Made by a program: the position numbers and the translations under genes. From NCBI GenBank assembly GCA_019351955.1, contig JABBOE010000010.1, forward strand, positions 1-40,765: a stretch of DNA of 40,765 bases. The letters are read 5' to 3'. The number at the start of each line of letters is the position of its first letter. Within the stretch, counting starts at the first letter, position 1. Below, piece by piece: positions 8,090 to 29,311 of the stretch. The notes below the pieces were generated by a model. It saw nothing but the letters and a program-made list of their open reading frames with translations, had not been told where the DNA came from and made no database searches. The DNA comes from Pseudomonadota bacterium. Lineage in GTDB: Bacteria > Pseudomonadota > Gammaproteobacteria > Burkholderiales > Burkholderiaceae_C.

Positions 8090-8197
8090 TACGTGACCGG
8101 CGTAAGTAAATATGTCTTGTGTGCGGTAGCGTACTGTTTGAACAGCTGTTCTGGCGTAATTCTTACCCGACGGCGAATGCCGCATCTCGGAATTCCA

Positions 8198-8215
8198 TCA
8201 GGTGGAACCGCCTGA
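8198..8215. promoter_or_regulatory. Operator-like dyad upstream of the glucan/pentose phosphate operon
   Basis: TCAGGTGGAACCGCCTGA is an 18-bp dyad with one mismatched position, about 150 bases before the first gene of the large operon. Its size and symmetry fit a dimeric regulator site, but no regulator gene is adjacent and only one copy was noticed. No clear sigma-70 promoter was identified between it and the start codon. Confidence 0.25.
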
Positions 8216-8365
8216 GGTGGAAAGACCTCATCCCCGCATGATCAATCCACTTGGTTTGCAGTCGTCGTCTTCCGACTTTGCGACCAAGGAACAACGTCAA
8301 CAAGATGCGAGGCTGTCGATGCCCAGCTTTCCAGAATGCTCACTGAAACCACGTAGAGACAGTCA

Positions 8366-11300
8366 ATGAGAATCTCTCGGACCGTCAAGCCGGATTCATG
8401 CCGCGACTTGAGTCATTTACGCCCTGACGTGCATTTGCTGTCGAATGATGAATACCACGTCATGCTCACGAGCTCGGGTGGTGGTTACAGCCGATGGAAG
8501 GATCTTGCCGTTACGCGCTGGCGTGATGATGCGACCCGCAATAACTGGGGATCGTTTTGCTATATCCGCGATCTCGCGAGCGGACAGATTTGGTCGACGA
8601 CATATCAGCCGACGTTGAAACGGGGGGATATCTACGAAACGGTGTTCTCGGAAGGACTGGCGATCGTTCGCCGCCTTGATCATGGCATAAGCGTCGAAAC
8701 GGAAATTGCGGTCTCGCCGTTCGCTGACGTGGAGATCCGCAGAATCAGGATCAGCAACCAGTCGCTCGGCAAGAGAGCGATGGAAATCACAAGTTATGCG
8801 GAAATCGTGCTGACGTCGCCTGCAGCGGATTCCACGCATCCTGCATTTGAAAAGCTGTTCGTCGAAACGGAAATCTTGCCTGCGCAGCAAGCCATCTTGT
8901 GCACCCGCCGGGTGAGCAGTGCCAGGGACCACCCAGCCTCGGCGTTTCACCTGATGCAGGCATCGAAGCCGGCTTTGGGGAGGGTGTCCTACAACACGGA
9001 TCGCGCGGATTTCATCGGGCGCGGACGCACCGTGGAGCGTCCGCAAGCCATGGACCATGCCGCAATGCTTTCGGGTCGCTCCGGCTCGGTGCTCGATGCG
9101 GCCGTGTCGATTCGTTATCCGCTTGAGCTTGAACCCGGTGAAACCGTTGTCGTGCGTTGGCTTTGCGGCGTGGCGCAAACACGCAAAGTCTGCCTGCAAG
9201 ACATCGAGCGATATCAAAGTGGAGCCGCTGCTGACCAAATTCTTGTGGACGCGGCAAAGCGCGGATGCGAAACCCTGCATCGGCTGGCTATGAGCGAAGG
9301 CGATATGCAGTTGTATGCGGGGCTTGCCAGTTCCCTGATTTATGCCAACGCATCCATGCGTGCAGGCCCGGACATCATCGCGCGCAACAACCAGGGACAA
9401 TCGGCACTCTGGGCGTATTCGATTTCTGGCGATTTACCGATCGCGCTGTTGCAGGTGACGCGCCCGGCGCAGGGTGATGTGGTCAGAGAGTTCGTCCAGG
9501 CCCATGCGTATTGGCGATGGCATGGCTTGAAGGTGGATACCGTTTTTCTGTGTGAAAGTGACGGTAATGCCGCGAGCGTGGCTGATCTGCAAGCGCTCAT
9601 CCTGCGTGCGAGCAGTGCTTGCAACACGGCTGAATTGATGAATCAACCGGGTGGTCTATGGTTGCGCGACGCCAGCAACGTGCCCCCCTCAGACAGCGTC
9701 CTTTTGCAAACGGCGTCGCGCATCGTGATGCACGATGGCGACGGCTCTTTGTCGCAGCAACTCGCCCGCCGAAGTGCGACCAAAGCGCCATCGTCAGCCG
9801 CTGCAGATCGTGATGCGGGCAATGCCGACAATCCCACAAAGTTCTTGCAACCGGCGCCTGCGCGCGATCTGTTGCTCATGGACCGCGGCTTGGGCGGGTT
9901 CAGTGCCGATGGGCGTGAATACGTGATCACGGCCACGCCGGGGCAGATGACACCCGCGCCGTGGATCAATGTGCTGGCCAATCCGTCATTCGGCAGTCTC
10001 ATTTCGGAGAGCGGTAGCGCAAACACCTGGAGCGAGAACGCACAGACATATCGCCTCACCCCATGGTCGAACGATCCTGTTGAGGATGCCAACACCGAGG
10101 CGTATTACATCCGCGACGAAGACAATGGCCAGTTCTGGTCGCCCACACTGCTGCCCACGCCTGGAGCCGCACCCTACGTGACACGGCACGGCTTCGGCTA
10201 CAGCGTGTTTGAGCACAGCGAGCATGGCATCGACTCGGAACTCACTGTGTATGTGGCCATCGACGCACCGATCAAATTCGCCGCGCTGAAGCTGCGCAAC
10301 ATGACGACCGCGGCTCGGCGGCTCTCGGTCACGGCCTATGTGGAGTGGGTGCTGGGCGATGAGCATGCGAAGACCCGCATGTTTGTGGGAACAGCGATCG
10401 CTGCTGGCAGCGGTGCGATATTCGCCCGCAACCCCTACAACACCGATTTCGCGGGCCGGGTTGCATTTCTGGATGTTGATGGCATGGCCAAAGCCACCGT
10501 ATGTGGTGACCGCCTGGCCTTTCTCGGGCGCAACGGCACGCTGAGCAATCCAGCGGCCATGTCACAACCGCTGCTCTGCGGAGCTGTCGGCTTCGCGCTA
10601 GACCCCTGCGCGGCCATCCGTGTGCCGCAGACATTGGCTCCGGGGCAAGCCTGCGAGCTGATTTTCCGACTCGGTGCGGCCGAGAGTGATGCGGCCGCCT
10701 CCAGTCTTGTACAGCGCTGGCGTGGAGCCGCTGCGGCGCACGAGGCGCTCGATGCGGTGAAGCAGCACTGGGCGCTGACGCTGGGTGCCGTGCAGGTGGA
10801 AACACCCGACCCTGCCCTCGATGTCCTCGTCAACGGCTGGCTGGTCTATCAGGTGCTTGCTTGCCGTCTCTGGGGGCGCACGGCGTTTTATCAGTCAAGC
10901 GGAGCCTTCGGTTTTCGTGATCAATTGCAGGATGTGATGGCCTTGGTTCATGCCACTCCGGACTTGGTGCGCGAACACTTGCTGCGCAGCGCGTCCCGCC
11001 AGTTTCCCGAAGGCGATGTTCAGCACTGGTGGCATCCTCCGGCAGGCCGCGGCATCCGAACGCGCTGCTCGGATGATGCACTTTGGCTGCCGCTGGCGAC
11101 ATGTCGCTATGTCGAAGTCACGGGTGACCACGGTGTGCTGGATGTCATCGTGCCATTCATCGACGGTGCGGCCCTCAAGCCTGATGCGGTGTCCGACTAC
11201 GCATTGCCCACAAGGTCCGAGCAAACGGCAAGTCTGTACGCCCATTGCGTGCGTGCCATTGAACATGGCTCGCGCTTCGGCGAGCATGGCTTGCCGCTCA

Positions 11301-12289
11301 TGGGCTCGGGTGACTGGAACGACGGGATGAACCTGGTGGGCGTGGGTGGGAAGGGCGAAAGTGCATGGCTCGGCTTCTTCCTGCACACCGTTCTCTCACA
11401 GTTCGGCGCAATGGCGCGGCAGCGTGGTGACACCAAATTCGCCAGCCATTGCGCAAGCGAGGCCACCCGTCTGCGCAATGCGATCGAACAACACTGCTGG
11501 GACGGAGACTGGTACCGCCGTGGTTGGTTCGATGACGGATCACCGCTTGGCACGTCGAGCAATGCCGAATGTCAGATCGACTCCATCGCCCAAAGCTGGG
11601 CCGTGTTGTCTGGGGCGGCTGAGGCAACGCGCGCGCGGCGCGCCATGCACGCGGTCGATACCCGGCTCGTGCGTCGCGACGCCGCCGTGATCGAGCTGCT
11701 GGCGCCGCCCTTCAATCACTCTGATCCGAGCCCTGGCTACATCCAGGGCTATGTCGGCGGTGTGCGCGAAAACGGTGGCCAGTACACCCACGGTGCGGTC
11801 TGGGTGGCCATGGCGTTTGCCGCGCTTGGTGATGCCGCTCGGGCCTGGGAGCTGTTCAACATGCTCAATCCCATCCAGCATGCCAACTCGCCAGAGGCCA
11901 TTGCGGTCTACAAAACAGAACCTTATGTCATGGCCTCCGACGTCTACGCCTGCGCACCCCACATCGGCCGCGGCGGCTGGACTTGGTACACGGGTTCGGC
12001 CGGTTGGATGTACCGCTTCATCCTCGAATCGCTGCTCGGTCTGCAACGCGTGGGCGACCAGCTGCGCTTCGCTCCCCGCATGCCGCAAAGCTGGGCTTCA
12101 TTCCAGGTGCATTACCGTTATCTGAAAACAACCTATCACATCACGGTGAAAAAGGCGGCAGCGAGCGAAGGCGCGCCAAGGTTGTCCCTCGACGGGGTTG
12201 ATCGACCAGGAGCAGTCCTTGCATTGTTTGATGATGGTCGGGAACACACGGTCAGCGTGCAATGTCCAACTCAGCAAGAGCCCCACTAG
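8366..12289 (+). CDS. GH94 phosphorylase, C-terminal module of cyclic beta-1,2-glucan synthase
   Basis: This 1307-residue protein corresponds to the C-terminal GH94 part of cyclic beta-1,2-glucan synthases (NdvB/Cgs, about 2800 residues). It lacks their membrane and GT84 synthase domains. Residues about 20-290 form a first beta-sandwich domain (LLSNDEYHVMLTSSGGGYSR, then WKDLAVTRWRDD). A second copy lies at about 515-800 (REYVITATPGQMTPAPWINV), followed by the (alpha/alpha)6 catalytic domain. The GH94 motif GSGDWNDGMN places the general acid at Asp986, and GGWTWYTGSAGWMYR at about 1203-1217 is the usual phosphorylase motif. The family cleaves beta-1,2-glucan with phosphate to glucose-1-phosphate. 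There is no signal peptide, so it is cytosolic. It heads the operon, with gnd 15 bases downstream. Cellobiose or laminaribiose specificity is possible but less likely, given the two-sandwich architecture. Confidence 0.85.
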   Translation: MRISRTVKPDSCRDLSHLRPDVHLLSNDEYHVMLTSSGGGYSRWKDLAVTRWRDDATRNNWGSFCYIRDLASGQIWSTTYQPTLKRGDIYETVFSEGLAIVRRLDHGISVETEIAVSPFADVEIRRIRISNQSLGKRAMEITSYAEIVLTSPAADSTHPAFEKLFVETEILPAQQAILCTRRVSSARDHPASAFHLMQASKPALGRVSYNTDRADFIGRGRTVERPQAMDHAAMLSGRSGSVLDAAVSIRYPLELEPGETVVVRWLCGVAQTRKVCLQDIERYQSGAAADQILVDAAKRGCETLHRLAMSEGDMQLYAGLASSLIYANASMRAGPDIIARNNQGQSALWAYSISGDLPIALLQVTRPAQGDVVREFVQAHAYWRWHGLKVDTVFLCESDGNAASVADLQALILRASSACNTAELMNQPGGLWLRDASNVPPSDSVLLQTASRIVMHDGDGSLSQQLARRSATKAPSSAAADRDAGNADNPTKFLQPAPARDLLLMDRGLGGFSADGREYVITATPGQMTPAPWINVLANPSFGSLISESGSANTWSENAQTYRLTPWSNDPVEDANTEAYYIRDEDNGQFWSPTLLPTPGAAPYVTRHGFGYSVFEHSEHGIDSELTVYVAIDAPIKFAALKLRNMTTAARRLSVTAYVEWVLGDEHAKTRMFVGTAIAAGSGAIFARNPYNTDFAGRVAFLDVDGMAKATVCGDRLAFLGRNGTLSNPAAMSQPLLCGAVGFALDPCAAIRVPQTLAPGQACELIFRLGAAESDAAASSLVQRWRGAAAAHEALDAVKQHWALTLGAVQVETPDPALDVLVNGWLVYQVLACRLWGRTAFYQSSGAFGFRDQLQDVMALVHATPDLVREHLLRSASRQFPEGDVQHWWHPPAGRGIRTRCSDDALWLPLATCRYVEVTGDHGVLDVIVPFIDGAALKPDAVSDYALPTRSEQTASLYAHCVRAIEHGSRFGEHGLPLMGSGDWNDGMNLVGVGGKGESAWLGFFLHTVLSQFGAMARQRGDTKFASHCASEATRLRNAIEQHCWDGDWYRRGWFDDGSPLGTSSNAECQIDSIAQSWAVLSGAAEATRARRAMHAVDTRLVRRDAAVIELLAPPFNHSDPSPGYIQGYVGGVRENGGQYTHGAVWVAMAFAALGDAARAWELFNMLNPIQHANSPEAIAVYKTEPYVMASDVYACAPHIGRGGWTWYTGSAGWMYRFILESLLGLQRVGDQLRFAPRMPQSWASFQVHYRYLKTTYHITVKKAAASEGAPRLSLDGVDRPGAVLALFDDGREHTVSVQCPTQQEPH

Positions 12290-12304
12290 ACAAGGAGTAT
12301 CACC

Positions 12305-13339
12305 ATGCAAATCGGCATGATTGGACTGGGGCGCATGGGCGCGAACATGACCCGCCGGCTCATGCGCGCCGGCCACGGCTGCGTTGTCCACGACACACGA
12401 GCAGCCGCCATTGAGCCACTGGAGGGAGAGGGGGCTCAGGGCGCAAAGACTCTGAGGCAGTTGGTCAAGGCGCTGGACAAGCCGCGGACCATCTGGCTGA
12501 TGGTGCCAGCAGCCGTCGTTGACGACACGCTGGCCGCGCTGACCCCGCTGCTTGACAGGCGCGACATCGTGATCGACGGCGGTAACTCCTACTACCGCGA
12601 CGACATACGTCGCGCGAGCACATTGCATGCGCTGGGCCTGCACTATGTCGATGTTGGCACCAGTGGTGGCGTTGCTGGCTTGGAGCGCGGCTATTGCCTG
12701 ATGATTGGTGGTGAGGCGGCGACCGTCAAACACCTTGATCCCTTGTTTGTCGCCCTGGCCCCCGGTGCCGGAACCGCCGTGCCGACTCCAGGGCGCAGGG
12801 CCGATGCGGGAAGCGCCGACCAGGGCTATTTCCACTGTGGGCTGCATGGTGCAGGGCATTTCGTCAAGATGGTTCACAACGGTATTGAGTACGGCATCAT
12901 GGCGGCGTATGCCGAGGGGCTGAATATTTTGCGCAACGCCAACGTGGGTCAACGGGCCGACGTTGTCAATGCCGAAACCACCCCGCTCCGCGATCCCGCC
13001 ATGTACCAGTTCGACATGAACCTGCCCGAGATCACGGAAGTCTGGCGGCGGGGCAGTGTGATCGGATCGTGGCTGCTTGATCTCACTGCCACGGCGTTGG
13101 CCGCCGATCCCGCCTTGCACAGCTTTCAGGGCCATGTCTCGGACTCCGGCGAAGGTCGTTGGACGATTCAGGCCGCGATTGACGAAGCAGTGCCAGCGCC
13201 GGTGCTTAGTGCCGCGCTCTACGCCCGTTTCAGCTCGCGCAATCAGGCGGATTTCGCCAACCGCGTGCTGTCTTCCATGCGGCATGAATTCGGCGGTCAC
13301 GTCGAACCCAAGCCGGATTCACCAACGGCGAAGTCCTGA
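12305..13339 (+). CDS. gnd: 6-phosphogluconate dehydrogenase, short type (decarboxylating)
   Basis: This 344-residue enzyme converts 6-phosphogluconate to ribulose-5-phosphate and CO2. It belongs to the short class (about 300-340 residues) rather than the 470-residue E. coli type. Visible are the dinucleotide fold GLGRMG at residues 7-12, the substrate loop [19 protein letters not shown], and [16 protein letters not shown] with the catalytic lysine at 188. The residue ending the second strand is Asp (VVHDTR), which usually favours NAD+ over NADP+; this is inference. GGAG precedes the ATG. It lies between the GH94 gene and zwf, with one base separating its stop from the zwf start. Confidence 0.93.
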
Positions 13340-13340
13340 C

Positions 13341-14750
13341 ATGCATGATGACCCTTCCCCCGCCCCAGCCCAGCAGTCGGATGCGCTGGTGGTGTTTGGC
13401 GCCACCGGTGATCTCGCCGACAAGATGATTTTTCCGGCGCTCTATGCCATGCGAAAGAGCGGCGCACTGAATGGGCCTGTTATCGGCGTGGCCTCTTCGT
13501 CCTGGACGCCTGAGCAATTGCGTGCCCATGCGCAGCAAAGCATCGAGCGCGCCGGCGCCGTGGACGATGCGCCCGCACTGGCCCAAACGCTCTCTCAAAT
13601 TCACTACGTCAGTGGTGATTACAACGACGCGGGTACCTACGCCAAACTCAAACACGCACTCGGTGCCGCCCAGCGGCCAGCCCACTATCTGGCCATTCCC
13701 CCCGCGCTGTTCGCCACGGTCATACAAGGGCTGAGCAAGTCGGGTCTGGCTGCGCAGGGGCGTGTCATCGTCGAGAAGCCATTCGGCCGCGACCTGGCCT
13801 CGGCGCGCGAACTCAACCGTGTCGCGTCCGACGCCTTTCCCAGCGAGGCTATCTTCCGCATTGATCACTTCCTCGGCAAGGGGGCGATCATGAACATTCT
13901 TTATTTTCGCTTCGCCAATGCCTTTCTCGAGCCGATCTGGAACCGCCAGCACGTGGCAAGTGTGCAAATCACGCTTGCCGAGGCTTTTGGCGTCCTTGGA
14001 CGCGGAAGGTTTTATGAAAGCGCCGGTTGCCTGCGCGACGTCATCCAGAACCATCTCTTTCAGATTGCCGCCCTGCTGGCGATGGAGCCACCGACCAGGC
14101 GCGACTTCGCGGCCGTCAACGGCGAGAAGCTCAAGATCTTCAAGGCGATGCGTCCCTTGCACCCCGCCGACATGGTGCGCGGCCAGTACGCGGGTTATCG
14201 AGAGGAGCCGCAGGTCGCGAGGGATTCGGATGTTGAGACCTATTGCGCGATGCGTCTGCACATCGCCTCCAAACGCTGGGCCGGCGTGCCCTGGTATTTG
14301 CGGGCTGGCAAGCAGCTGCCAGTGACCAGCTGCGAGGTGCTGATTCGTTTGCAACCGCCGTCCCAGGCGCTGTTCGCAGACGCCGTGGCAAGCGGCGTGC
14401 AGACCAATTACCTGCGCTTCCAGCTATCGCCCACGTCGATGATCGCACTGGCCGCCCGCGTCAAACGTCCTGGCAAGGGCTATGAGGGCGATCAACGCGA
14501 ACTGACCCTGGCTGAAGATGACGCTGGCGAAGAAACGCCCTATGAGCGCCTGCTCACCGACGCCATGTCTGGCGACAACGCCTTGTTCACCAGTGAAGAA
14601 ACCGTGGAGGCTGCCTGGGCGGTGGTTGAGCCGGTTCTTTCCAAACACCCGCGTGCCCTAGTCTACCCGACTGGCAGTTGGGGGCCAGACCAAGCCGACC
14701 GCTTGATTGCAGCCGACGGCGGCTGGCACAACCCTGAAGCAGTGCGGTGA
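13341..14750 (+). CDS. zwf: Glucose-6-phosphate 1-dehydrogenase
   Basis: This is a 469-residue G6PDH catalysing the first oxidative pentose phosphate step. The Rossmann motif GATGDLADK sits at residues 20-28. The substrate motif reads RIDHFLGK (173-180) with catalytic His176 and Lys180; the usual Glu after this lysine is Gly here (GKGAIMN rather than GKETVQN). [10 protein letters not shown] is also conserved. The start is the ATG one base after the gnd stop; an in-frame extension upstream lies entirely within gnd and is rejected. No 6-phosphogluconolactonase gene follows, although it often does in other bacteria. Confidence 0.93.
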
Positions 14751-14754
14751 TGCC

Positions 14755-15468
14755 ATGACTCAGGATATTGTGTTCTTTCTGGACGTGGACAACACGCTAC
14801 TCGACAACGACCGTGTCATCCACGATCTCAGGCAGCACCTGGAGCGCACCTTCGGCCGCGCCAGCGCTGAACGCTACTGGGCACTCTTCGAGCAATTGCG
14901 CAGCGAACTCGGGTACGCCGACTACCTGGGCGCCTTGCAGCTCTATCGCATGGATGAGCTAGGCGATGCGCAGAGCGATCCGCGGCTTCTCGAAATGTCC
15001 ACTTTCCTCATCGACTATCCCTTCGCCGAGCGGCTCTATGCCGGGGCGCTCGGCGTCATCGAACGACTCCAAACATTCGGCACGACGGTGGTGCTGACCG
15101 ATGGCGACGTTGTGTTCCAGCCGCGCAAGGTGCAGCGCTCAGGCCTGTGGCGTGCTGTCGATGGCCGCGTGCTGATCTATCTCCACAAGGAACGCATGCT
15201 CCGCCCAATGCAGGAACGCTTCCCGGCGCAACACTATGTCATGGTGGACGACAAACTGCGCATTCTTGCCGCCATGAAGCAGGGCCTTGGCGCTCGGCTG
15301 ACGACTGTATTTGTACGCCAAGGCCATTACGCCACCGACCCGAACAATATTGCGCATTATCCGCAGGCCGACATGAGCCTCGATTGCATCGGTGATTTGC
15401 TGGCCATCGATCTCCCCACGTTGTTGGGGCAAAAATCAACCAGTCGTTCAAAACAGGAGTCGCCATGA
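14755..15468 (+). CDS. HAD-family phosphatase-like protein
   Basis: This is a 237-residue HAD hydrolase. Motif I is FFLDVDNTLLDND at the N-terminus, VVLTDGD supplies motif II, RKVQRSG the lysine motif III, and YVMVDDKLRIL the acidic motif IV. A helical cap fits between motifs I and II. It starts four bases after the zwf stop and its stop overlaps the tal start as ATGA, so it is an integral operon member. Its position suggests a sugar-phosphate substrate, but HAD substrate specificity cannot be read from sequence. It occupies the place where a lactonase (pgl) might be expected, but it is not homologous to one. Confidence 0.8.
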   Translation: MTQDIVFFLDVDNTLLDNDRVIHDLRQHLERTFGRASAERYWALFEQLRSELGYADYLGALQLYRMDELGDAQSDPRLLEMSTFLIDYPFAERLYAGALGVIERLQTFGTTVVLTDGDVVFQPRKVQRSGLWRAVDGRVLIYLHKERMLRPMQERFPAQHYVMVDDKLRILAAMKQGLGARLTTVFVRQGHYATDPNNIAHYPQADMSLDCIGDLLAIDLPTLLGQKSTSRSKQESP

Positions 15469-16556
15469 ATCCCACACAACAACTGCACGACCTCGGCCAA
15501 AGCATATGGCTCGACAACATCACGCGAGAGTTACTCGCCAGCGGCACGCTGGCACGCTATATCCGCGACCTGCATGTGACTGGCCTGACATCGAACCCCA
15601 CCATATTCGAGCATGCCATCGGTCACTCCACGGCCTACGACCCCGCAATTCGTGGCCAGGCCGGCACAGGCAAGTCGGACGGCAGCCTGTTTTTTGAATT
15701 GGCGCTGGAAGACCTGACCCAGGCGGCCGACTTGTTCCGCCCCACCTTCGATGCCAGCGCGGGGGTGGATGGTTGGGTCTCGCTGGAAGTGTCTCCCCTG
15801 TTGGCCCATGACGCCGCAAACAGCATCAAGGAAGCGGTCGAACTGCATGCGCGCGCCAATCGTCCCAACCTGTTCATCAAAATTCCGGGAACGGCTGAAG
15901 GCTTGGTAGCGATTGAGGCGTGCATCTTTGCCGGCACTCCCGTGAATGTCACGCTGCTGTTTTCGTGCAAGCAATACATGGCTGCGGCCGAGGCCTATTT
16001 GCGCGGCATCGAGCGGCGCATGGAGGCTGGGCGCGATCCCAATGTTGGCTCGGTCGCGTCGCTCTTCATCAGCCGCTGGGATGTCGCGGTGAAAGACGCC
16101 GTTCCACAGCGATTGCACAACCGCCTCGGCATTGCCGTGGCCATGCAAACGTACCAAGCGTATTGCGCCTTGCTCGCCTCGCCCCGATGGCTGAAGTTGG
16201 CTGCGGCTGGTGCCCGCGCGCAGCGCGTGCTGTGGGCCAGCACGGGCACCAAGGACCCGCAGGCGCCTGACACCTTGTATGTCGAGGCCCTGGCAGCTCC
16301 ACTCACCATCAACACCACACCAGAAAAAACGCTGCTTGCCTTCGCCGACCACGGCCAAGTCAAGCAGATGCTGCCGTCGGATGGAGGCGTAGCAGAAGCT
16401 ACGCTTGCAGACTTCGGCCGCCAGGGTATCGACCTCGATGTCCTGGCCGAGCGCCTGCAGCGCGAAGGCGCTGAGGCGTTTGTCGCATCGTGGCGCCAAC
16501 TCTTGCAAGCGATCGGCACCAAAGCAGCGCATCTTGCGCAGGTCAGCGCGTCATGA
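15465..16556 (+). CDS. tal: Transaldolase
   Basis: This 363-residue transaldolase moves dihydroxyacetone units between sedoheptulose-7-phosphate and glyceraldehyde-3-phosphate. The Schiff-base lysine is Lys139 in the motif [18 protein letters not shown] near residue 45, and VNVTLLFS shortly after the lysine, are family signatures. The length fits the longer actinobacterial/cyanobacterial-type transaldolase (TIGR00876), not the 316-residue TalB. AGGAG lies before the ATG, which overlaps the upstream stop (ATGA). The stop likewise overlaps the pgi start, implying coupled translation. Confidence 0.93.
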
Positions 16557-18238: not shown

Positions 18239-19182
18239 CCTCAGGCGACGACCAGGCGCTGTACTTGCTGCCTTTCGACCACCGGCATTCCTACATCACC
18301 GGCATGTTTCACTTCAAGCCGCCGCTGACCACGCAGCAGCACGCAGACGTCTGCGACAGCAAGCAGCTCATCTATGAAGGCTTTCAGCTGGCCCTGGAGG
18401 CGGGTGTGCCTCGCGACGCGGCAGGCATCTTGGTCGACGAAGAATTTGGCAGCGCCATCTTGCGAGATGCGCACCAGCGCGGTTTCATTATGGCGTTGTC
18501 CACCGAGAGTAGTGGCTCGGAGGAGTTCAGGTTCGAATACGGCGAAGACTTCGCCCGTCATATCGAACTCTTCGATCCGACGTTTGCCAAGGTGCTGGTG
18601 CGCTACAACCCCGAGGGTGACCATGCGCTGAACTTGCGCCAGGCGGAACGCCTGAAGCAACTATCCGATGTCTGTCAGGCCACCGGGCGCCGCTTCATGT
18701 TTGAACTGCTGGTGCCAGCGACAGAGCAACAACTTGCCGGGCTGAAGGGCGACCGTGCAGCGTATGACCGAACGATGCGGCCCCAGCTCATGGTCGAAGC
18801 GATCCATGCCTTGCAAGACGCCGGGATTGAGCCCGACGTGTGGAAGATCGAGGGACTCGCCGAGCGTGACGATTGCGCCCGGATCGTCGAGGCGGTCCGG
18901 CGCGGTGGGCGCAGCACGGTCAGCTGCATCGTGCTTGGCCGTGGTGCGGACGCCGCCAGCGTGCGCAGTTGGCTTGCGACGGCTGCCGGCGTGCCAGGGT
19001 TCATCGGATTCGCCGTGGGCCGCACCAGCTTTTGGGATGCGGTTGCCGCTTACCGCGAGGGGACCCTGACGCGCGTGGCGGCGGCAACACAAATTGCCGG
19101 ACGCCTACGCGAGTGGGTTGATATTTTCGAGCGTGGGCGCATGGCACGCAGCACCCGCGCCATGCCAGGAGTGGCATCATGA
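18235..19182 (+). CDS. DUF2090 protein, class I aldolase-like
   Basis: This 315-residue protein belongs to the DUF2090 family, the domain also found at the C-terminus of IolC-type kinases and related to TIM-barrel 2-deoxy-5-keto-gluconate-6-phosphate aldolases. Characteristic stretches are [17 protein letters not shown] at the N-terminus, [15 protein letters not shown] near residue 70, and [10 protein letters not shown] near residue 120. [16 protein letters not shown] and DVWKIEGL follow, the last with a lysine in the region expected for a barrel active site. AAGGAG precedes the ATG, and both ends are ATGA overlaps with pgi and tkt. An aldolase acting on a phosphorylated sugar is the best inference. 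The actual substrate is unknown, and no myo-inositol genes are nearby. Confidence 0.8.
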
Positions 19183-21347
19183 ACCAGCGTGTGCGGAGCA
19201 CTCTCCCCGCCGATCGCAACGAGGCGCCGACCCCGGCGCAACTCGATCAGCTCTGTATCAACACGCTGCGCACGCTGTCCATCGACGCCGTGCAAAAGGC
19301 AAACTCCGGCCACCCCGGTACGCCATTGGATGCAGCTCCCGCCGCTTACTGCCTGTGGCAGCGCTTTCTGCGCTACGACCCGAACGCGCCCGAATGGCCA
19401 AACCGCGACCGCTTCGTGCTCTCAGCGGGCCATGCCTCGGCGCTGCTCTACAGCCTCTTGTTGCTGTGCCGGGTGAAGCCCCAGGGCGCGCTCGGCAGCG
19501 AGACGGACGCCGAGCCGTTCGGCAAGGCCGTCACCATGGACGCGCTGCAGCACTTTCGCCAGGCGGGAAGTTGCTGCACGGGTCACCCGGAATTCGGTGC
19601 CGCGACCGGCGTCGAGACCACGACCGGTCCGCTTGGCCAGGGCGCGGCTACCAGCGTTGGCATGGCAATGGCGTCAGCTTGGCTCGCAGCCACCTACAAC
19701 CGCCCAGGCTTTGCGCTGTTCGATCACAACGTCTACGCCTTGTGCGGCGACGGCGACATGATGGAGGGCATCAGCAGCGAGGCGGCATCACTAGCCGGTC
19801 ATTTGAAGCTCGCCAATTTGTGCTGGATCTACGACGACAACCACATCAGCATTGAGGGCTCGACCGCCATCACCTTCACGGAGGACGTTGGCGCGCGCTT
19901 CGAAGCCTACGGCTGGCAGGTTGTCCATGTGGCGGACGCGAACGACCTCGATGCCCTGACGCACGGTTTGCAGCGCTTCATCGAAACCGATGACCGGCCG
20001 ACGATGATCATCGTGCAAAGCCACATTGGTTACGGCGCGCCTCACAAGCAAGACACCAAGGAAGCCCACGGCGAACCGCTTGGCATCGCAGAGGTACGTC
20101 TTGCCAAAGAGTTTTTTGGCTTCGACCCCGACGTGCAATTTGCGGTTCCAAATGGCGTGACAGAGCACTTCAGCGCGCAATTTGGCGCGCGTGGCGCCAC
20201 GACCCATGCGGATTGGACGATGTTATTCAACGCGTATCGACGCCAGTACCCAGATCTTGGGTTGCAGATCGAGCATATGCAGCAACGCGCCTTACCCGAC
20301 GGATGGGACAGATCGCTGCCGAGTTTCGCAGCGGATTCCAAGGGCATCGCCACGCGAGACGCTTCGGGCAAGGTGCTCAATGCCATTGGCGCGCACATGC
20401 CCTGGCTGCTGGGGGGTGCGGCTGATTTGTCACCATCGACCAAAACCCATCTGAGCTTTGATTTTGCAGGCGACTTCGAGCCACCTTCTGGTCATGAAGA
20501 CAGGGCGCATTCCTATGCCGGGCGCAACGTCCATTTTGGCGTTCGCGAACATGCAATGTGCGCTGTGGCGAGCGGCCTGTCTCTGTCGAAACTGCGTGCC
20601 TTCGCCGCCAGCTTCCTTGTCTTTACCGACTACTGCCGGGGCTCCATTCGGCTCAGCGCGATGATGGGGCTTCCGCTGATCTACATCTGGACGCACGACT
20701 CCATCATCATGGGCGAAGACGGACCGACGCACCAGCCCGTCGAGCAGCTGCCCTCGCTTCGGGCGATGCCCGGCATGGTGCTGCTGCGCCCGGCCGACGC
20801 CAATGAAGTAGTGGAGGCGTGGAAGGTCATCATGCACATGACGGACCGGCCCGTCAGCCTGGTGCTGACACGCCAGGCGCTTCCCACACTCGACCGCAGC
20901 CGCTACGCCAGTGCCTCCGGGCTCGCGCGAGGTGCCTATGTGCTGGCCGACACGGCTGATGGAAAACCGGACGTACTGCTGCTGGCGACGGGAAGCGAAG
21001 TGGCGTTGTGCGTTGCCGCGCGTGAAGAATTGATGCGCGAGGGCATACAAGCCCGCGTCGTCAGCATGCCATCGTGGGAGCTGTTCGAGGCGCAATCCGC
21101 GGAATACCGCGATAGCGTCCTGCCGCCAGCGGTGACGGCGCGTGTATCCGTCGAGGCGGCATCGCCGCTGGGCTGGGAGCGCTATGCGGGGCAACACGGC
21201 GCCATTCTTGGCATGCGTACGTTTGGCTTGTCGGCGCCGGGCAAGGTCGCCGAGGCGTTTTTTGGCTTTGACGTCGCGCATGTCGTGGCAGCCGCCAGGC
21301 AGCAACTGGCGCGCCGGCCATCATCTGAGTCAGGAGCACGACCATGA
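19179..21347 (+). CDS. tkt: Transketolase
   Basis: This 722-residue thiamine-diphosphate enzyme transfers two-carbon ketol units in the pentose phosphate pathway. Family features are NSGHPGTPLDAAP near residue 42, TGPLGQGAATSVGMAMA near 148, and the ThDP/Mg motif GDGDMMEGISSEA near 189 continuing into YDDNHISIEG. The pyrimidine domain carries FGVREHAM and LIYIWTHDSIIMGEDGPTHQ. The protein is somewhat longer than the usual 660-680 residues, the extra part being a loop region around 320-400. AGGAG precedes the ATG, which overlaps the stop of the DUF2090 gene; its own stop overlaps the pgm start. Confidence 0.95.
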   Translation: MNQRVRSTLPADRNEAPTPAQLDQLCINTLRTLSIDAVQKANSGHPGTPLDAAPAAYCLWQRFLRYDPNAPEWPNRDRFVLSAGHASALLYSLLLLCRVKPQGALGSETDAEPFGKAVTMDALQHFRQAGSCCTGHPEFGAATGVETTTGPLGQGAATSVGMAMASAWLAATYNRPGFALFDHNVYALCGDGDMMEGISSEAASLAGHLKLANLCWIYDDNHISIEGSTAITFTEDVGARFEAYGWQVVHVADANDLDALTHGLQRFIETDDRPTMIIVQSHIGYGAPHKQDTKEAHGEPLGIAEVRLAKEFFGFDPDVQFAVPNGVTEHFSAQFGARGATTHADWTMLFNAYRRQYPDLGLQIEHMQQRALPDGWDRSLPSFAADSKGIATRDASGKVLNAIGAHMPWLLGGAADLSPSTKTHLSFDFAGDFEPPSGHEDRAHSYAGRNVHFGVREHAMCAVASGLSLSKLRAFAASFLVFTDYCRGSIRLSAMMGLPLIYIWTHDSIIMGEDGPTHQPVEQLPSLRAMPGMVLLRPADANEVVEAWKVIMHMTDRPVSLVLTRQALPTLDRSRYASASGLARGAYVLADTADGKPDVLLLATGSEVALCVAAREELMREGIQARVVSMPSWELFEAQSAEYRDSVLPPAVTARVSVEAASPLGWERYAGQHGAILGMRTFGLSAPGKVAEAFFGFDVAHVVAAARQQLARRPSSESGARP

Positions 21348-23035
21348 ACACCCACATAAGCCCGCTTGCGGGCAAGGCAGCGCCCGTCGAATCCCTGGTC
21401 GATGTGGCAAAGCTCGTGACAGCGTATTACGTCAACATCCCCGATCCAACGGTCGCAGCGCAGCGCGTGACCTTCGGCACTTCGGGGCACCGTGGTTCGG
21501 CCTTTGACGCTTCGTTCAACGAAGCGCATGTCCTTTCCATCACGCAGGCCATATGCCAATACCGCAACGCGCATGCCATCAACGGGCCGCTGTTCTTGGG
21601 AATCGACACGCATGCGTTATCCGAGCCAGCATGCGCAAGCGCGCTGGAAGTTCTGGCTGCCAATGGCGTCGAGGTGATGCTGGCCTTGAACGATGAATAC
21701 ACGCCGACGCCAGCCGTTTCGCATGCCATCCTGACCCACAACCGTGGCCGCAGCACAGGGCTGGCGGACGGGATCGTGGTGACGCCGTCGCACAACCCGC
21801 CGCGCGATGGGGGCTTTAAATACAACCCGCCCAATGGCGGCCCCGCCGGTCAGGACATCACCGACTGGATTGGCGCTACGGCCAACCGCCTTCTCGAAAA
21901 GAGCCTTGATGGCGTGAAGCGCATGCCGCACACCAAGGCCCTGCGTGCAGCGACCACGCGTCGGCATGATTTTCTCGGCGCCTATGTCGGCGACCTTGGA
22001 AGCGTTGTTGATATGGACGTGATTCGCAGCGCCAAGATCCACATGGGCGTCGACCCGCTGGGCGGCGCGGGCGTGCACTATTGGGCCCGCATCGCGGAAC
22101 GCTACAAGCTCGATTTGCAAGTGGTCAGCGAGATCGTCGACCCGACCTTTCGCTTCATGACCCTAGACTGGGACGGGCAGATTCGGATGGACCCGTCATC
22201 GAAATACGCGATGCAGCGCCTGCTTGCGATGAAGGACCGCTTCGACATCGCCTTTGCCTGCGATACCGACCATGACCGCCACGGTATCGTCACTCCCACC
22301 GCAGGCTTGCTCATGCCGAATCACTATCTTTCGGTCGCAATCGATTACCTGTTTCGGCATCGGCCGCAATGGAGCGCGCAGGCTGCCGTTGGCAAGACCG
22401 TTGTCAGCACGCGCTTGATCGACCAGATCACAGCCCGACTTGGTCGTACCCTGGACGAAGTGCCGGTCGGGTTCAAGTGGTTCTCCAAAGGCTTGCTGGA
22501 CGGTACGCTGGGCTTTGCAGGCGAAGAAAGCGCAGGCGCTGCATTTTTACGCAGCGACGGCACGGTCTGGACCACTGACAAGGATGGCCTGACGGCGGCG
22601 CTTCTTTCTGCCGAAATCACCGCCCGCACTGGCCACGATCCTGGCGCCCTGTATGAGGAATTGGCCAAGGCCTTCGGCAATCCTCCGCTGGCTGACAGAG
22701 TGGAAGCGCCGGCCACAGCGCTGCAGAAAAAGCAGTTGGCTGCATTGACACCGCAACAGATTGGCTCAACCGAACTCGCCGGAGAAAAAATCGAGAACAT
22801 CCTCAACAAGGCGCCCGGCAACGACGCACCGATTGGCGGCATCAAGGTTGTGGCCAGCAGCGGCTGGTTCGCCGCGCGGCCATCGGGCACGGAAGACATT
22901 TACAAAATCTATGCGGAGAGCACCCAGGGCCCAGAGCACTTGAAGCGCATTCTCACAGAGGCGCAACGCATTGTGGATGCTGCCATTACGCCAGTGGCTC
23001 CGAAGGCCGCAGCAGTAGCCAGCCAAACCGGATGA
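21344..23035 (+). CDS. pgm: Phosphoglucomutase (alpha-D-glucose phosphate-specific)
   Basis: This 563-residue mutase interconverts glucose-1-phosphate and glucose-6-phosphate. It is of the E. coli Pgm type: TFGTSGHRG near residue 44, the phosphoserine loop VVTPSHNPPRDGGFKYN with Ser149, the metal loop ACDTDHDRHG, and the C-terminal phosphate-binding ARPSGTED. It is the link between the product of the GH94 phosphorylase and the glucose-6-phosphate-consuming enzymes of the same operon. AGGAG precedes the ATG. The start overlaps the tkt stop (ATGA). Confidence 0.95.
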   Translation: MNTHISPLAGKAAPVESLVDVAKLVTAYYVNIPDPTVAAQRVTFGTSGHRGSAFDASFNEAHVLSITQAICQYRNAHAINGPLFLGIDTHALSEPACASALEVLAANGVEVMLALNDEYTPTPAVSHAILTHNRGRSTGLADGIVVTPSHNPPRDGGFKYNPPNGGPAGQDITDWIGATANRLLEKSLDGVKRMPHTKALRAATTRRHDFLGAYVGDLGSVVDMDVIRSAKIHMGVDPLGGAGVHYWARIAERYKLDLQVVSEIVDPTFRFMTLDWDGQIRMDPSSKYAMQRLLAMKDRFDIAFACDTDHDRHGIVTPTAGLLMPNHYLSVAIDYLFRHRPQWSAQAAVGKTVVSTRLIDQITARLGRTLDEVPVGFKWFSKGLLDGTLGFAGEESAGAAFLRSDGTVWTTDKDGLTAALLSAEITARTGHDPGALYEELAKAFGNPPLADRVEAPATALQKKQLAALTPQQIGSTELAGEKIENILNKAPGNDAPIGGIKVVASSGWFAARPSGTEDIYKIYAESTQGPEHLKRILTEAQRIVDAAITPVAPKAAAVASQTG

Positions 23036-23089
23036 ATGGTGCCGGCATCTTGTCTGATTTCGGACTCCGACAAACCCGCTGGAAGGGTG

Positions 23090-24415
23090 ATGATGCATAC
23101 GTCGATCCAGCTTGACGCGGCGATCACGGCTGAGGCGATGAAACACGCCGATGCGGCCATGTTCGATAGCCTGCAGCAGGCCGCCTTCAGCTACTTTCCG
23201 AAAGCAAGCAACCCGCGAAACGGTTTGGTCGCCGACACCACGCGGCAGGGCTCGCCCGCAAGCATCGCGGTGGCCGGCTTTGCACTTTCGTCCTATCCGG
23301 TAGCGGTGGAGCATGGCTGGATTGAACGCGACGCTGCCGTGCAAGCCTGCCTGAGCTGCATGCGGTTCTTTTGGAACAGCGACCAGACGGGAGGCCCTGA
23401 GGCCACCGGCTATCAAGGCTTTTATTTTCATTTTCTCGACATGGAAACAGGCGTCCGTGTCTGGCAGTCCGAACTGTCGCTGATTGACACCGCCTTGCTG
23501 ATCGCTGGAATGCTCACCGCCGCCACGTACTTTGACGCCAGCACCCCTTCCGAGGTGGAACTGCGTGAACTGGCCGATCGCTTGTACCGCAGGGTGAATT
23601 GGCGCTGGGCGCAATACGACGGCGCAACCGTGGCCCAAGGCTGGAAGCCCGAGTGCGGTTTCTTGCACTATGGTTGGGAGGGCTATAGCGAAGCCATCCT
23701 GCTTTATGCCTTGGGCCTTGGTTCGCCGACGCATCCGTTCACCGCGCCAAGCTTTGAGGCGTGGACGGTGACCTATCAATGGGAGAATCTCTACGGCTAC
23801 GATTTTCTCTATGCGGGGCCTCTGTTCATTCACCAGTTCTCCCATGCGTGGATCGACTTTCGGGGCATCCGCGATCGATTCATGCGCGAGAAGCGAAGCG
23901 ACTATTTCGAAAACAGCCGTCGTGCCACTTATGTGCAGCGCGAATATGCCATTCGCAATCCGCACAGCTTCATCGGGTATGCAGATAACTGCTGGGGCCT
24001 TTCTGCGGGTGAAGGGCCAACCGCAGAGCCGCGACTCATCGGCGGTCAGCAACAACCGTTCTTCGGCTATGCCGCGCGGGGTGTTCCGTACGGCCCTGAT
24101 GACGGCACCATCGCGGGCCCATCGATCACGGCGTCGTTGGTTTTTGCGCCAGAGATTGCGCTGCCCGCGATGCGCAATCTCTTTGCCACAGGCGCGCCTC
24201 ACCAAGGCGAGGCCTTGCGTTCCAGCGGCATTAACGCCAGTTTCAACGCCACCGATGCAAGCTGGATTTCCGCGGGCGAATTTGGGCTGGACCAAGGCAT
24301 GACAGTGTTGATGATTGAAAACTACCGCAGCGGCCTCTTATGGGAATTGGGCCGTCAGTCAAGAATCCTCCAGACCGGCTTGCGCCGTGCTGGATTCAAA
24401 GGCGGGTGGCTGTGA
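23090..24415 (+). CDS. GH144-type (PF10091) beta-1,2-glucanase-like protein
   Basis: This 441-residue protein matches the glycoamylase/GH144 family, whose characterised members are endo-beta-1,2-glucanases. The same fold occurs as the middle domain of cyclic beta-1,2-glucan synthase. Family traits visible are FSYFPKASNPRNGLVADTTR near the start, SIAVAGFALSSYPVAVEHGW, GFYFHFLDMETGVR, SELSLIDTALLIAG, and YEWENLYGYDF-like and FIHQFSHAWIDFRG segments. It also has FNATDASWISAGEFGLDQG near the C-terminus. The start is placed at ATGATG after GGAAGGG (23081-23087); an ATG directly after the pgm stop has no such site. There is no signal peptide, unlike secreted GH144 enzymes, so a cytosolic substrate is implied. 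Confidence 0.8.
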   Translation: MMHTSIQLDAAITAEAMKHADAAMFDSLQQAAFSYFPKASNPRNGLVADTTRQGSPASIAVAGFALSSYPVAVEHGWIERDAAVQACLSCMRFFWNSDQTGGPEATGYQGFYFHFLDMETGVRVWQSELSLIDTALLIAGMLTAATYFDASTPSEVELRELADRLYRRVNWRWAQYDGATVAQGWKPECGFLHYGWEGYSEAILLYALGLGSPTHPFTAPSFEAWTVTYQWENLYGYDFLYAGPLFIHQFSHAWIDFRGIRDRFMREKRSDYFENSRRATYVQREYAIRNPHSFIGYADNCWGLSAGEGPTAEPRLIGGQQQPFFGYAARGVPYGPDDGTIAGPSITASLVFAPEIALPAMRNLFATGAPHQGEALRSSGINASFNATDASWISAGEFGLDQGMTVLMIENYRSGLLWELGRQSRILQTGLRRAGFKGGWL

Positions 24416-24434
24416 TCGCCGCAACCTTGCAACC

Positions 24435-25970
24435 ATGCCGATAACCACGCCGCCCCCCACGAACGCAAGCGCTGGCCTGGGAGGAGATCCCCACGAGCAA
24501 GAGCTTCTGTCCAACGTCAGCCCGGCCAACTGGATCAACCCGACGCCATCCGGCGTTTATCAGTTTCTCATCATTGGCGCCGGCCCTGGTGGCATTGCAG
24601 CCGCAAGCACCGCAGCCGCGCGTGGCGTGAAAGTGGCGTTGATCGAGCGCCACCGGCTTGGCGGCGGCTCGCTGAGTTACGGTTGCGTGCCTTCGAAGGC
24701 GATGATTCGAACCGCGCGCGTGTATGCCGACATGCGCAACGCCCCAAATTTTGGCGCTGTCCCACCGCGGGCAATTGAGGTTGATTTCCAGATGGCGATG
24801 GAGCGGTTGAGACGCATCCGCTCGCGCATCAGCCGCGTGGACTCAGCTGCCAGACTGATCGCTGAAGGCATCGATCTGTATTTCGGCGTTGCACACTTCG
24901 TCGGCGCCGATGCGGTCGAAGTCGCCGGCCAGCGCCTGCGCTTCAAGAAGGCGCTGATCGCCACCGGATCACGTTCCATCGTGCCCGAAGTCCCGGGCCT
25001 GACCGAGGTGGGTTACCTGACCAACGAATCGGTGTTCAACCTGACGGTGCCTCCGCGCAGGCTGCTGGTGATTGGCGGCGGTCCGCTTGGCTGCGAATTG
25101 GCGCAGGCGTTCAGTCGCTTGGGCGTGAAAACCATCATCGCCCACGACGCCCCCTTGTTTTTGCCCAAGGAGGAGCGTGACGCGGCGCAGATGATGTCTG
25201 ACGCATTGGCACGCGATGGCGTCGAGATCCACCTGAATAGCGATGTCGTCAGCGCCCGCATGGAACACGGCCGCAAACGCGTCGAACTGGTCAATGACGG
25301 TCAGGTCACCACCGTTGATGTCGATGAAATTCTGACTGGGATCGGTCACATGCCGGCAGTGCGTGCGCTCAGGCTGGAAGCTGCCGGCGTAGCTTACGAC
25401 CCTGAAGCAGGGGTCCACGTCGATGATTTCCTGCGCACCAGCAATCCACGCATTTACGCCGCTGGAGATGTTTGCCTGGAGCACAAGTACAGCAATATGG
25501 CGGTGGCATCGGCGGGCGTCGCGGTTCAAAACGCCTTGTTTTATGGACGCAAGCGCATGAGCGTCTTGACGATTCCGTGGTGCACCTACACCGACCCGGA
25601 AATCGCCCACATTGGCATGTCGGTGCGGCAGGCGCGCGAACGCGATATTCCAGTGAAAACCTTTACGGTGCTGATGCATGATGACGACCGCGCCATCACA
25701 GATGGCGAAGAAAACGGCTTTGTGAAAATTCACATCCGTGAAGGGACCGATACCATTCTTGGAGCCACCATCGTTGCCCGGGATGCTGGTGAAATGATCA
25801 ACGGCATTTCAATGGCGATGGTGGCGGGAATGGGCTTGGGCGCACTGGCCACCGTGGTGCATGCGCATCCCACGCAAGGTGAGGCGATCAAAATGGCAGG
25901 AGAAGCCTATTTGCGTACGCGGCCCCCACACGTTGTCGCCCGGCTGTTGCGCGCATGGGTGAGCCGATGA
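24435..25970 (+). CDS. FAD-dependent pyridine nucleotide-disulfide oxidoreductase-like protein
   Basis: This 511-residue flavoprotein resembles mercuric reductase and dihydrolipoamide dehydrogenase. It has an FAD fold LIIGAGPGGIAAAS near residue 45, an NAD(P) fold VIGGGPLGCELAQAFSRLG near residue 210, an FAD motif RIYAAGDVC, and a dimerisation domain with the His478/Glu483 pair (HAHPTQGE). The active-site segment reads GGGSLSYGCVPSK. The first redox cysteine (pattern CxxxxC) is Ser79; only Cys84 remains. It cannot form the normal disulfide, so a different chemistry or electron acceptor is likely. The N-terminal 40 residues are an unrelated Pro-rich extension. Start at 24435, 19 bases after the glucanase stop; the ribosome binding site is weak. 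It is the last gene of the operon. Confidence 0.82.
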   Translation: MPITTPPPTNASAGLGGDPHEQELLSNVSPANWINPTPSGVYQFLIIGAGPGGIAAASTAAARGVKVALIERHRLGGGSLSYGCVPSKAMIRTARVYADMRNAPNFGAVPPRAIEVDFQMAMERLRRIRSRISRVDSAARLIAEGIDLYFGVAHFVGADAVEVAGQRLRFKKALIATGSRSIVPEVPGLTEVGYLTNESVFNLTVPPRRLLVIGGGPLGCELAQAFSRLGVKTIIAHDAPLFLPKEERDAAQMMSDALARDGVEIHLNSDVVSARMEHGRKRVELVNDGQVTTVDVDEILTGIGHMPAVRALRLEAAGVAYDPEAGVHVDDFLRTSNPRIYAAGDVCLEHKYSNMAVASAGVAVQNALFYGRKRMSVLTIPWCTYTDPEIAHIGMSVRQARERDIPVKTFTVLMHDDDRAITDGEENGFVKIHIREGTDTILGATIVARDAGEMINGISMAMVAGMGLGALATVVHAHPTQGEAIKMAGEAYLRTRPPHVVARLLRAWVSR

Positions 25971-29253: not shown

Positions 29254-29311
29254 GGCTCTGGGTTTCCGTACGCAGCCAGACGAACGGCTGCAACACACGC
29301 CACGTGCTCAC

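Follow-up and report, generated by a model that had tools for sequence, protein, structure and literature searches.

Why would genes for a putative beta-1,2-glucan phosphorylase and a putative beta-1,2-glucanase be joined, in one bacterial gene block, to those for phosphoglucomutase and the pentose phosphate pathway? The question is raised by eleven open reading frames (ORFs) at positions 8366-25970 of a 40,765-base stretch of DNA, hereafter the window, which comprises bases 1-40765 of a 48,222-base contig (C127) from the 3.87-Mb genome (99.6% completeness) of a Pseudomonadota bacterium of the Thiomonas group, G000. We consider it probable that this operon encodes a cytoplasmic module that breaks down self-made beta-1,2-glucan to glucose-1-phosphate, NAD(P)H and pentose phosphates. 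In the following list of features, CGS denotes cyclic beta-1,2-glucan synthase, and the last two entries flank the block.

8366-12289, plus strand: GH94, predicted stand-alone CGS-type glucan phosphorylase, 1307 residues (PF06165 twice, PF17167; 971 bits to Agrobacterium CGS, 8rf9)
12305-13339, plus strand: gnd, 6-phosphogluconate dehydrogenase, NAD type (TIGR00872, 401.5 bits, cut-off 297.2)
13341-14750, plus strand: zwf, glucose-6-phosphate dehydrogenase (TIGR00871, 458.5 bits, cut-off 400.6)
14755-15468, plus strand: HAD-type hydrolase (PF00702; PDB 2p11, E 6.8e-89)
15465-16556, plus strand: tal, transaldolase (NF002881, 457.4 bits, cut-off 367)
16553-18238, plus strand: pgi, glucose-6-phosphate isomerase (NF001211, 810.8 bits, cut-off 492)
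18235-19182, plus strand: DUF2090 protein, aldolase-like (PF09863; weak match to tagatose-1,6-diphosphate aldolase, E 0.003)
19179-21347, plus strand: tkt, transketolase (TIGR00232, 768 bits, cut-off 682.25)
21344-23035, plus strand: pgm, phosphoglucomutase (TIGR01132, 852.7 bits, cut-off 778.05)
23036-24415, plus strand: predicted GH144-type beta-1,2-glucanase without a signal peptide, 459 residues (PF10091; PDB 8xul, XCC2207, E 5.5e-111)
24435-25970, plus strand: FAD-containing oxidoreductase (NF004991, 692.1 bits, cut-off 620)
26803-29298, minus strand: xfp, phosphoketolase, convergent to the operon (PF09364, PF03894, PF09363)
8184-8315, plus strand: relict 3′ end of a CRP/FNR-type regulator gene (52% identity over 44 residues to the regulator of G335)

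The eleven ORFs lie head to tail on the plus strand with no internal stops and with intergenic gaps of -4 to +19 bases, which bears out the tight packing described in an earlier, sequence-only reading of this DNA; its naming of pgm, zwf, gnd, tal, tkt and pgi likewise stands, each matching its family above the cut-off. The same eleven genes occur in identical order in all five genomes of the genus that have a stand-alone GH94 (G000, G334, G358, G335 and G032, the last being Thiomonas delicata DSM 16361), and in each of the five tal, pgi, DUF2090, tkt and pgm start 4 bases inside the gene before them, as measured by a script that chose the start codon closest to the expected place. The ratio of nonsynonymous to synonymous substitution rates (dN/dS) of the eleven genes is 0.11-0.20 in comparison with G032 and 0.10-0.16 in comparison with G358. 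Because the order is the same in five of five genomes and dN/dS is well below 1, the sequence evidence indicates that the eleven genes are a real, maintained operon-like unit. Promoter-like sites (4 versus 4.3 expected) and terminator-like sites (12 versus 16.5 expected) show no excess over chance, and a pattern search upstream of GH94 found no match to FNR, CRP or sigma-54 sites.

Residues 21-1265 of the operon GH94 align with residues 1540-2788 of the Agrobacterium CGS (PDB 8rf9; 971 bits, E 5.8e-291), the next solved protein scores 291 bits, and chitobiose and cellobiose phosphorylases fall far behind. SOGP belongs to the same enzyme family and has the expected reaction, but is distant in sequence (E 1.7e-06 for 5h3z, which we take to be SOGP). 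A Pfam scan of the operon GH94 gave no match to a glycosyltransferase or to PF10091. The protein does keep a stretch matching the Rossmann-like insert of CGS, where it is 41% identical to the CGS of its own genome, versus 65% in the catalytic domain, with the domain borders estimated. Its D852 (motif GFRDQ) is present in 32 of 32 alignment rows and its D986 (GDWND) in all 31 rows that reach the site. These residues are the equivalents of D2393 and D2528 of the Agrobacterium CGS, D852 having been placed by count on the 8rf9 alignment with a 19-residue offset between 8rf9 and 8rf0, and D986 by what we take to be its motif. D2393 and D2528 are aspartates that were mutated in the Agrobacterium enzyme, according to the available part of the source (PMC10901819). 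Relative to that enzyme, with which it shares the alignment through the Rossmann-like insert and both predicted active-site aspartates, the operon GH94 is freed of the membrane, glycosyltransferase and cyclase parts and is placed in a catabolic gene block. We read it, as had been proposed, as a stand-alone CGS-type phosphorylase, predicted to phosphorolyse beta-1,2-glucan.

The PF10091 protein, from a family labelled 'glucoamylase', has as its nearest solved relative XCC2207 (PDB 8xul, E 5.5e-111). The accessible portion of PMC12102758 describes XcSGL as a GH144 beta-1,2-glucanase and names XCC2207 once; a Gln at the place of E239 suggests that the two are one protein. Counted along the XCC2207 alignment, E219, F264 and Y345 of the operon protein correspond to the clan-defining E239, F286 and Y367 of XcSGL, and the Glu is present in 10 of 10 alignment rows. 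Family and these three residues are what the protein shares with XcSGL, from which it differs in having no hydrophobic N-terminus and in belonging to a group of similar enzymes, many of them plasmid-borne. It is therefore predicted, in agreement with the sequence-only reading, to be a GH144 hydrolase of beta-1,2-glucan.

That reading also held that neither glycoside enzyme has a signal peptide, and a hydropathy test (12-residue Kyte-Doolittle mean over the first 50 residues), used in place of SignalP, supports this: in all five genomes the N-termini of GH94 and GH144 are not hydrophobic, the highest mean being 0.95. The GH144s of two utilisation-type loci, L009 and L052, reach 2.2 and 2.4. Among plasmid GH144s, 8 of 11 are at or below 0.72, the Cupriavidus copy reaches 1.63 at residue 9, and those of Acidiphilium and Methylophaga reach 2.2-2.3 at residues 44-47, in a hydrophobic stretch that is probably the conserved core of a short protein.

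A candidate source of the glucan is encoded elsewhere in G000, where an open CGS gene of 2892 codons (contig C266; L015:1592-10267) has GH94 and PF10091 parts and a weak GT2-type match (E 6.7e-4). Agrobacterium makes cyclic beta-1,2-glucan on the cytoplasmic side. In the module that we propose, this full-length CGS would make the cyclic glucan, the GH144 enzyme, without an export signal, would cut rings and chains, and the stand-alone GH94, a phosphorylase domain apparently freed from CGS, would take the end glucose as glucose-1-phosphate; because the glucose is released in this form, no ATP would be spent on activating it. Phosphoglucomutase would convert glucose-1-phosphate to glucose-6-phosphate, the zwf and gnd products would turn this into NAD(P)H, CO2 and ribulose-5-phosphate, the tal, tkt and pgi products would return carbon, and the adjoining phosphoketolase could turn pentose or hexose phosphate into acetyl phosphate. 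The sequences supply the families, the predicted catalytic residues, the gene order, the presence of a CGS and the repeated linkage described below; we infer the substrate, the direction of the reaction, the location of the glucan and its use as a reserve under energy, oxygen or metal stress.

The presence of CGS tracks that of the operon across the genus. Of 28 genus genomes, 5 have a stand-alone GH94 and 7 have CGS-length proteins, with all 5 among those 7, such that the operon is found in 5 of 7 genomes with CGS and 0 of 21 without. Random placement would give this co-occurrence with a chance of 21/98280, about 2e-4, a figure that ignores shared descent. Outside G000, CGS was called by frame length plus a GH94 part, and a 52-residue GH94 match in G333 (E 5.5e-4) was counted as none. 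GH144 occurs in the same 5 carriers and in G355, which also has CGS; strong tal matches have the same distribution, the others being weak (E 4e-6 or worse), and in G355 tal and the CGS frame point away from each other across about 0.3 kb. The separate CGS, the genus-wide co-occurrence and the convergent phosphoketolase are new with respect to the sequence-only reading. The sequences give good support to its route, in which glucan yields NAD(P)H and pentose phosphates by way of glucose-1-phosphate and glucose-6-phosphate, and its intracellular glucan gains from the CGS in the same genome and the co-occurrence; the glucan may be either of the two things that it posed, a storage polymer or a recycled osmoregulatory glucan.

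Beside the CGS genes themselves, a second zwf (54%) lies directly behind that of T. delicata (L048:15668-17053), and a gene for a Band 7/SPFH-domain protein lies directly upstream of those of G358 and G351 (L109:14592-15470, L107:3987-4763).

Relatives of the operon occur in other genera. A GH94 match at E 1e-100 or better was found in 87 of 399 sampled genomes of the order, most in frames of 2700-3100 residues. The stand-alone candidates comprise ten stretches from eight genomes, leaving out the short frames of G430, G641 and G731, and other operon genes are present only in the stretches of G649 and G459. Those of G596, G384, G369, G509, G556 and G674 show GH94 alone, and these may be cut CGS genes, since each lies at or near a contig edge. 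In G649, from another genus of the same family, the order is gnd-zwf-HAD-tal-pgi-DUF2090-pgm-tkt (53-71% identity), with pgm and tkt swapped. Past these genes come a DUF488 gene, a PQQ-type dehydrogenase and then, on the other strand, a GH144 group consisting of GH144 (64%), FAD oxidoreductase (60%) and 6-phosphogluconolactonase (TIGR01198, above cut-off). G649 also has a stand-alone GH94 (42%) and a 2906-residue CGS-length protein, the first 1398 residues of which gave no Pfam match, and the whole set fits into about 33 kb of contig C22. In G459, whose genome also encodes a CGS-length protein, tal (67%) is accompanied by a DUF488-like ORF and by a fragment of GH94 (62%) that lies at the edge of a contig. 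Its tal shares one ORF with a zwf start (L125:5973-7316).

In a 32-row GH94 tree, the stand-alone copies of Thiomonas and G459 fall in a single clade whose sister group is the Thiomonas CGS domains (96/96), and the GH94 of G649 groups with CGS domains of other family members (100/99). Forcing these stand-alone GH94s together was rejected (approximately unbiased test, p 2.3e-53), although this test shares the pull of the model and presumes a group named beforehand. In an enlarged tree, with Variovorax and two CGS rows added, the stand-alone clade includes Variovorax (100/100) and G649 remains apart (100/99), with the sister of the clade not settled. The stand-alone GH94 thus seems, from these trees, to have arisen twice from CGS lineages, with some doubt because the G649 GH94 is a long branch. 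If so, the glucanase and the pathway acquired their phosphorylase from CGS on separate occasions, and the linkage would be stronger functional evidence than shared descent. The operon GH144s form one group (100/100, or 92/87 with plasmid relatives added) that is separate from the utilisation-locus GH144s (100/100); the operon GH94s are separate as well, in a tree that PUL_L052 enters only from query residue 496 on.

Mobile relatives extend this linkage. Twelve plasmid matches were inspected, among which the Shinella and Cupriavidus stretches carry no annotation. Plasmid 3 of Variovorax sp. WDL1 (NZ_LR594691.1, L139) has GH94 (65%), gnd, zwf, GH15, HAD, tal, tkt, pgm, GH144 (69%) and FAD oxidoreductase (73%), followed by acetate kinase and phosphoketolase (67%), both convergent, and by another GH144 (55%), with copper-resistance genes adjoining; the PLSDB gene table lists neither its GH94 nor its first GH144. 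It shares the order GH94-gnd-zwf-HAD-tal-tkt-pgm-GH144-FAD oxidoreductase with the window at 65-80% identity, but adds GH15 and has no match to pgi or DUF2090. The metal region of Polaromonas pPNAP02 carries tal-pgm-phosphoketolase-acetate kinase-tkt, HAD-gnd and DUF2090-GH144, and in Criblamydia GH144, acetate kinase, glgP and phosphoketolase are flanked by metal-efflux genes. Because phosphoketolase recurs in these three plasmid loci, the window phosphoketolase is probably part of the module; the gene also adjoins the operon in G334, where it is partly seen at the edge of the stretch. On Acidiphilium pACRY01, an 8.4-kb CGS-type gene is divergent from SDR-GMC-glycosyl hydrolase-GH144-FAD oxidoreductase, and in Shinella GH144 adjoins FAD oxidoreductase. 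Sequence comparison found no match to the operon pentose phosphate genes in the GH144 loci of Acidiphilium, Shinella, Sinorhizobium M14, Mesorhizobium, Methylomagnum and Cupriavidus; for the Methylophaga locus, the annotation, which is the sole basis here, lists no pentose phosphate genes. A separate pattern among these plasmid GH144 genes is that those of Acidiphilium and Mesorhizobium lie beside an unassigned glycosyl hydrolase, an SDR and a GMC oxidoreductase, and that of Methylomagnum beside an SDR and a glycosyl hydrolase (L141, L146, L147).

The search for the same gene order that had been suggested for other genomes has thus yielded four more of the genus, a rearranged version in G649 and a nearly whole one on the Variovorax plasmid. 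Among the titles listed from the open-access papers searched, none describes such an operon, and no paper there joins Thiomonas with cyclic glucan or 2-glucan with phosphoketolase. The earlier statement that no described system has this composition is accordingly not contradicted by the papers searched, but G000 is not the only carrier of the composition.

What might such a module be for? Many other bacteria use glycogen for comparable reductant supply, and a storage role for the glucan is plausible. GT35, GT5 and GH13 gave no match in G000 (14 control genomes were positive in 12, 12 and 13 cases, respectively) or in G032 and G334, and G358 has only a 61-residue GT35 stretch. In G335, an intact 237-residue CRP/FNR-type regulator (PF13545, PF00027) ends directly before GH94; the window has the 3′ remnant, and in G358 the matches are split over two frames. 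About 1.2 kb downstream of the operon, on the same strand, G335 and G358 carry genes for a double-domain KaiC homologue and a GGDEF-histidine kinase (L152:10115-14088, L151:8259-13529), the KaiC homologue of G335 scoring 210 bits, below the NCBIfam cut-off of 408. A Crp-type regulator comes next in G335, with a look-alike ORF in G358, and in the window the phosphoketolase occupies the place of the KaiC homologue and kinase genes. In Synechococcus elongatus, night-time glycogen breakdown involves glgP, zwf and gnd under RpaA, as given in the part of PMC5400509 at hand. Polymer phosphorolysis is tied to the oxidative pentose phosphate pathway there too, but the polymer is an alpha-glucan and the operons are separate, whereas the window has a beta-1,2-glucan pair in one block; the KaiC neighbour recalls this clock control as a resemblance only. 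We put forward, tentatively and with appreciable doubt, the fuller proposal that cyclic beta-1,2-glucan is an intracellular carbon and reductant store replacing glycogen. CGS would make this glucan, a cytoplasmic GH144 would open it and a CGS-derived enzyme would phosphorolyse it, after which it would be burned through the pentose phosphate pathway that the same block encodes. A regulator of the CRP/FNR type would once have controlled the block, and two relatives have a KaiC homologue close to it.

Several observations weigh against the module or against its use as a store. The pathway genes and the GH94 of G649 are separate transcription units. The operon contains zwf and gnd but no 6-phosphogluconolactonase gene (pgl), which in G649 adjoins GH144 and FAD oxidoreductase. 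Most of the plasmid GH144 loci inspected are without pentose phosphate genes, and some have GMC and SDR oxidoreductases. The GH15 of Variovorax points to alpha-glucan too, GH15 and glgP both being found to join such cassettes. G335 carries the operon together with glycogen genes (GT5, GT35 and a weak GH13). GT5 is missing in 25 of 28 genus genomes, including all 21 without CGS, and glycogen loss is therefore a genus background that is not creditable to the operon. Thiomonas sp. 3As has glycogen and polyhydroxybutyrate synthesis genes and two mdoDG clusters (PMC2829063, available in part), so the genus may have further reserves and a further glucan.

An alternative is osmoregulatory turnover, in which the cyclic glucan protects osmotically or in the envelope and the operon clears or recycles it, NAD(P)H being a by-product or serving against oxidants. 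Agrobacterium without CGS is sensitive to hypo-osmotic stress, as stated in the accessible part of PMC10901819, and operon relatives lie in plasmid metal-resistance regions. Nonetheless, tal, tkt, pgi, zwf, gnd and pgm in one block seem needless for simple recycling, and we regard this explanation as rather unlikely. A ChvA-type exporter was found over the cut-off in none of the 28 genomes, which would also speak against it, but as 0 of 14 control genomes passed the cut-off, leaving the result with no positive control, this absence is weak evidence, to the detriment of the intracellular module that we prefer as well.

With a similarly limited chance of being correct, the block could be a general mobile stress-energy cassette of metal-resistance elements, in which sugar-phosphate, phosphoketolase and oxidoreductase genes are combined with any glucan enzymes, alpha or beta. 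Plasmid loci with GH15 (Variovorax) or glgP (Criblamydia), phosphoketolase and acetate kinase near metal-efflux or copper genes are consistent with such a cassette, and they offer partial support for an alpha-glucan partner. Set against this, the GH94 and GH144 pair is kept in all five genus operons, in G649 and in Variovorax, and GH94 was seemingly recruited twice from CGS. The same operon with a glycogen phosphorylase partner, sought in the class and the order with DUF2090 as marker, was not found. DUF2090 matched in 2 of 274 class genomes at E 1e-20, the second match being a 687-residue frame, 29% identical, and in 3 of 399 order genomes at E 1e-30, the third of which, G454, shows over 39 kb no operon genes except HAD and a DUF2090 gene that is interrupted by a stop. 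On a plasmid of Deinococcus, DUF2090 (57%) has genes for a sugar ABC transporter, GH1 and DUF488 as its neighbours, and no other operon genes.

External beta-1,2-glucan could instead be the substrate, its oligosaccharides being imported and split in the cytoplasm as in the utilisation-type loci L009 and L052 (G027), which likewise combine GH144 with a stand-alone GH94. L052 has a solute-binding protein, and ORFs of L009 were read by eye as a LacI regulator, an outer-membrane receptor, a solute-binding protein and ABC parts. These loci differ from the operon in their importer-like genes, in the hydrophobic N-terminus of their GH144 and in having no operon-type pentose phosphate gene in the stretches seen, whereas the window shows no sugar importer among its scanned ORFs and no such N-terminus; the trees also place the operon GH144s and GH94s apart, and we find this alternative improbable. 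That GH94 instead works in synthesis, making linear beta-1,2-glucan from glucose-1-phosphate in an operon that balances sugar phosphates, is more improbable still, given the glucanase and two oxidative dehydrogenases in the block that point to breakdown, even though glycoside phosphorylases can in general work both ways and SOGP run in reverse is used to make linear beta-1,2-glucan (PMC11842490, in the part available).

Were the glucan indeed a store broken down by this module, some bacteria would have a phosphorolytic carbohydrate reserve other than an alpha-glucan, of which we know no bacterial example, and cyclic beta-1,2-glucan would serve metabolism in addition to its known osmotic and host-interaction functions. 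A synthase could, moreover, give rise to its own catabolic enzyme, as the length-control half of CGS seems to have been freed twice and each time joined to this pathway. T. delicata DSM 16361, which can be cultured, offers a direct test of the claim, and because CGS-type GH94 occurs in so many genomes of the order (the 87 of 399 noted above), the answer may bear on many bacteria.

Among the minor features, Ser replaces the first redox-pair cysteine in the five Thiomonas-group copies of the FAD oxidoreductase; both cysteines are kept in G649 and Variovorax, and both are gone in Acidiphilium and Shinella. The Variovorax and Acidiphilium counterparts are annotated as mercuric reductase. At 929-1985 of the window, a catalase fragment and a segment that matches IS3 transposases from plasmids of Burkholderia glumae suggest that the left flank is rearranged. 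Behind the T. delicata operon lie metal transporter genes (Nramp, VIT-family and cation-efflux; L046:9625-12959). CGS-type genes, annotated as NdvB, cyclic beta 1-2 glucan synthetase or glucoamylase family, are also present on a number of Enterobacteriaceae plasmids, including one of Klebsiella variicola.

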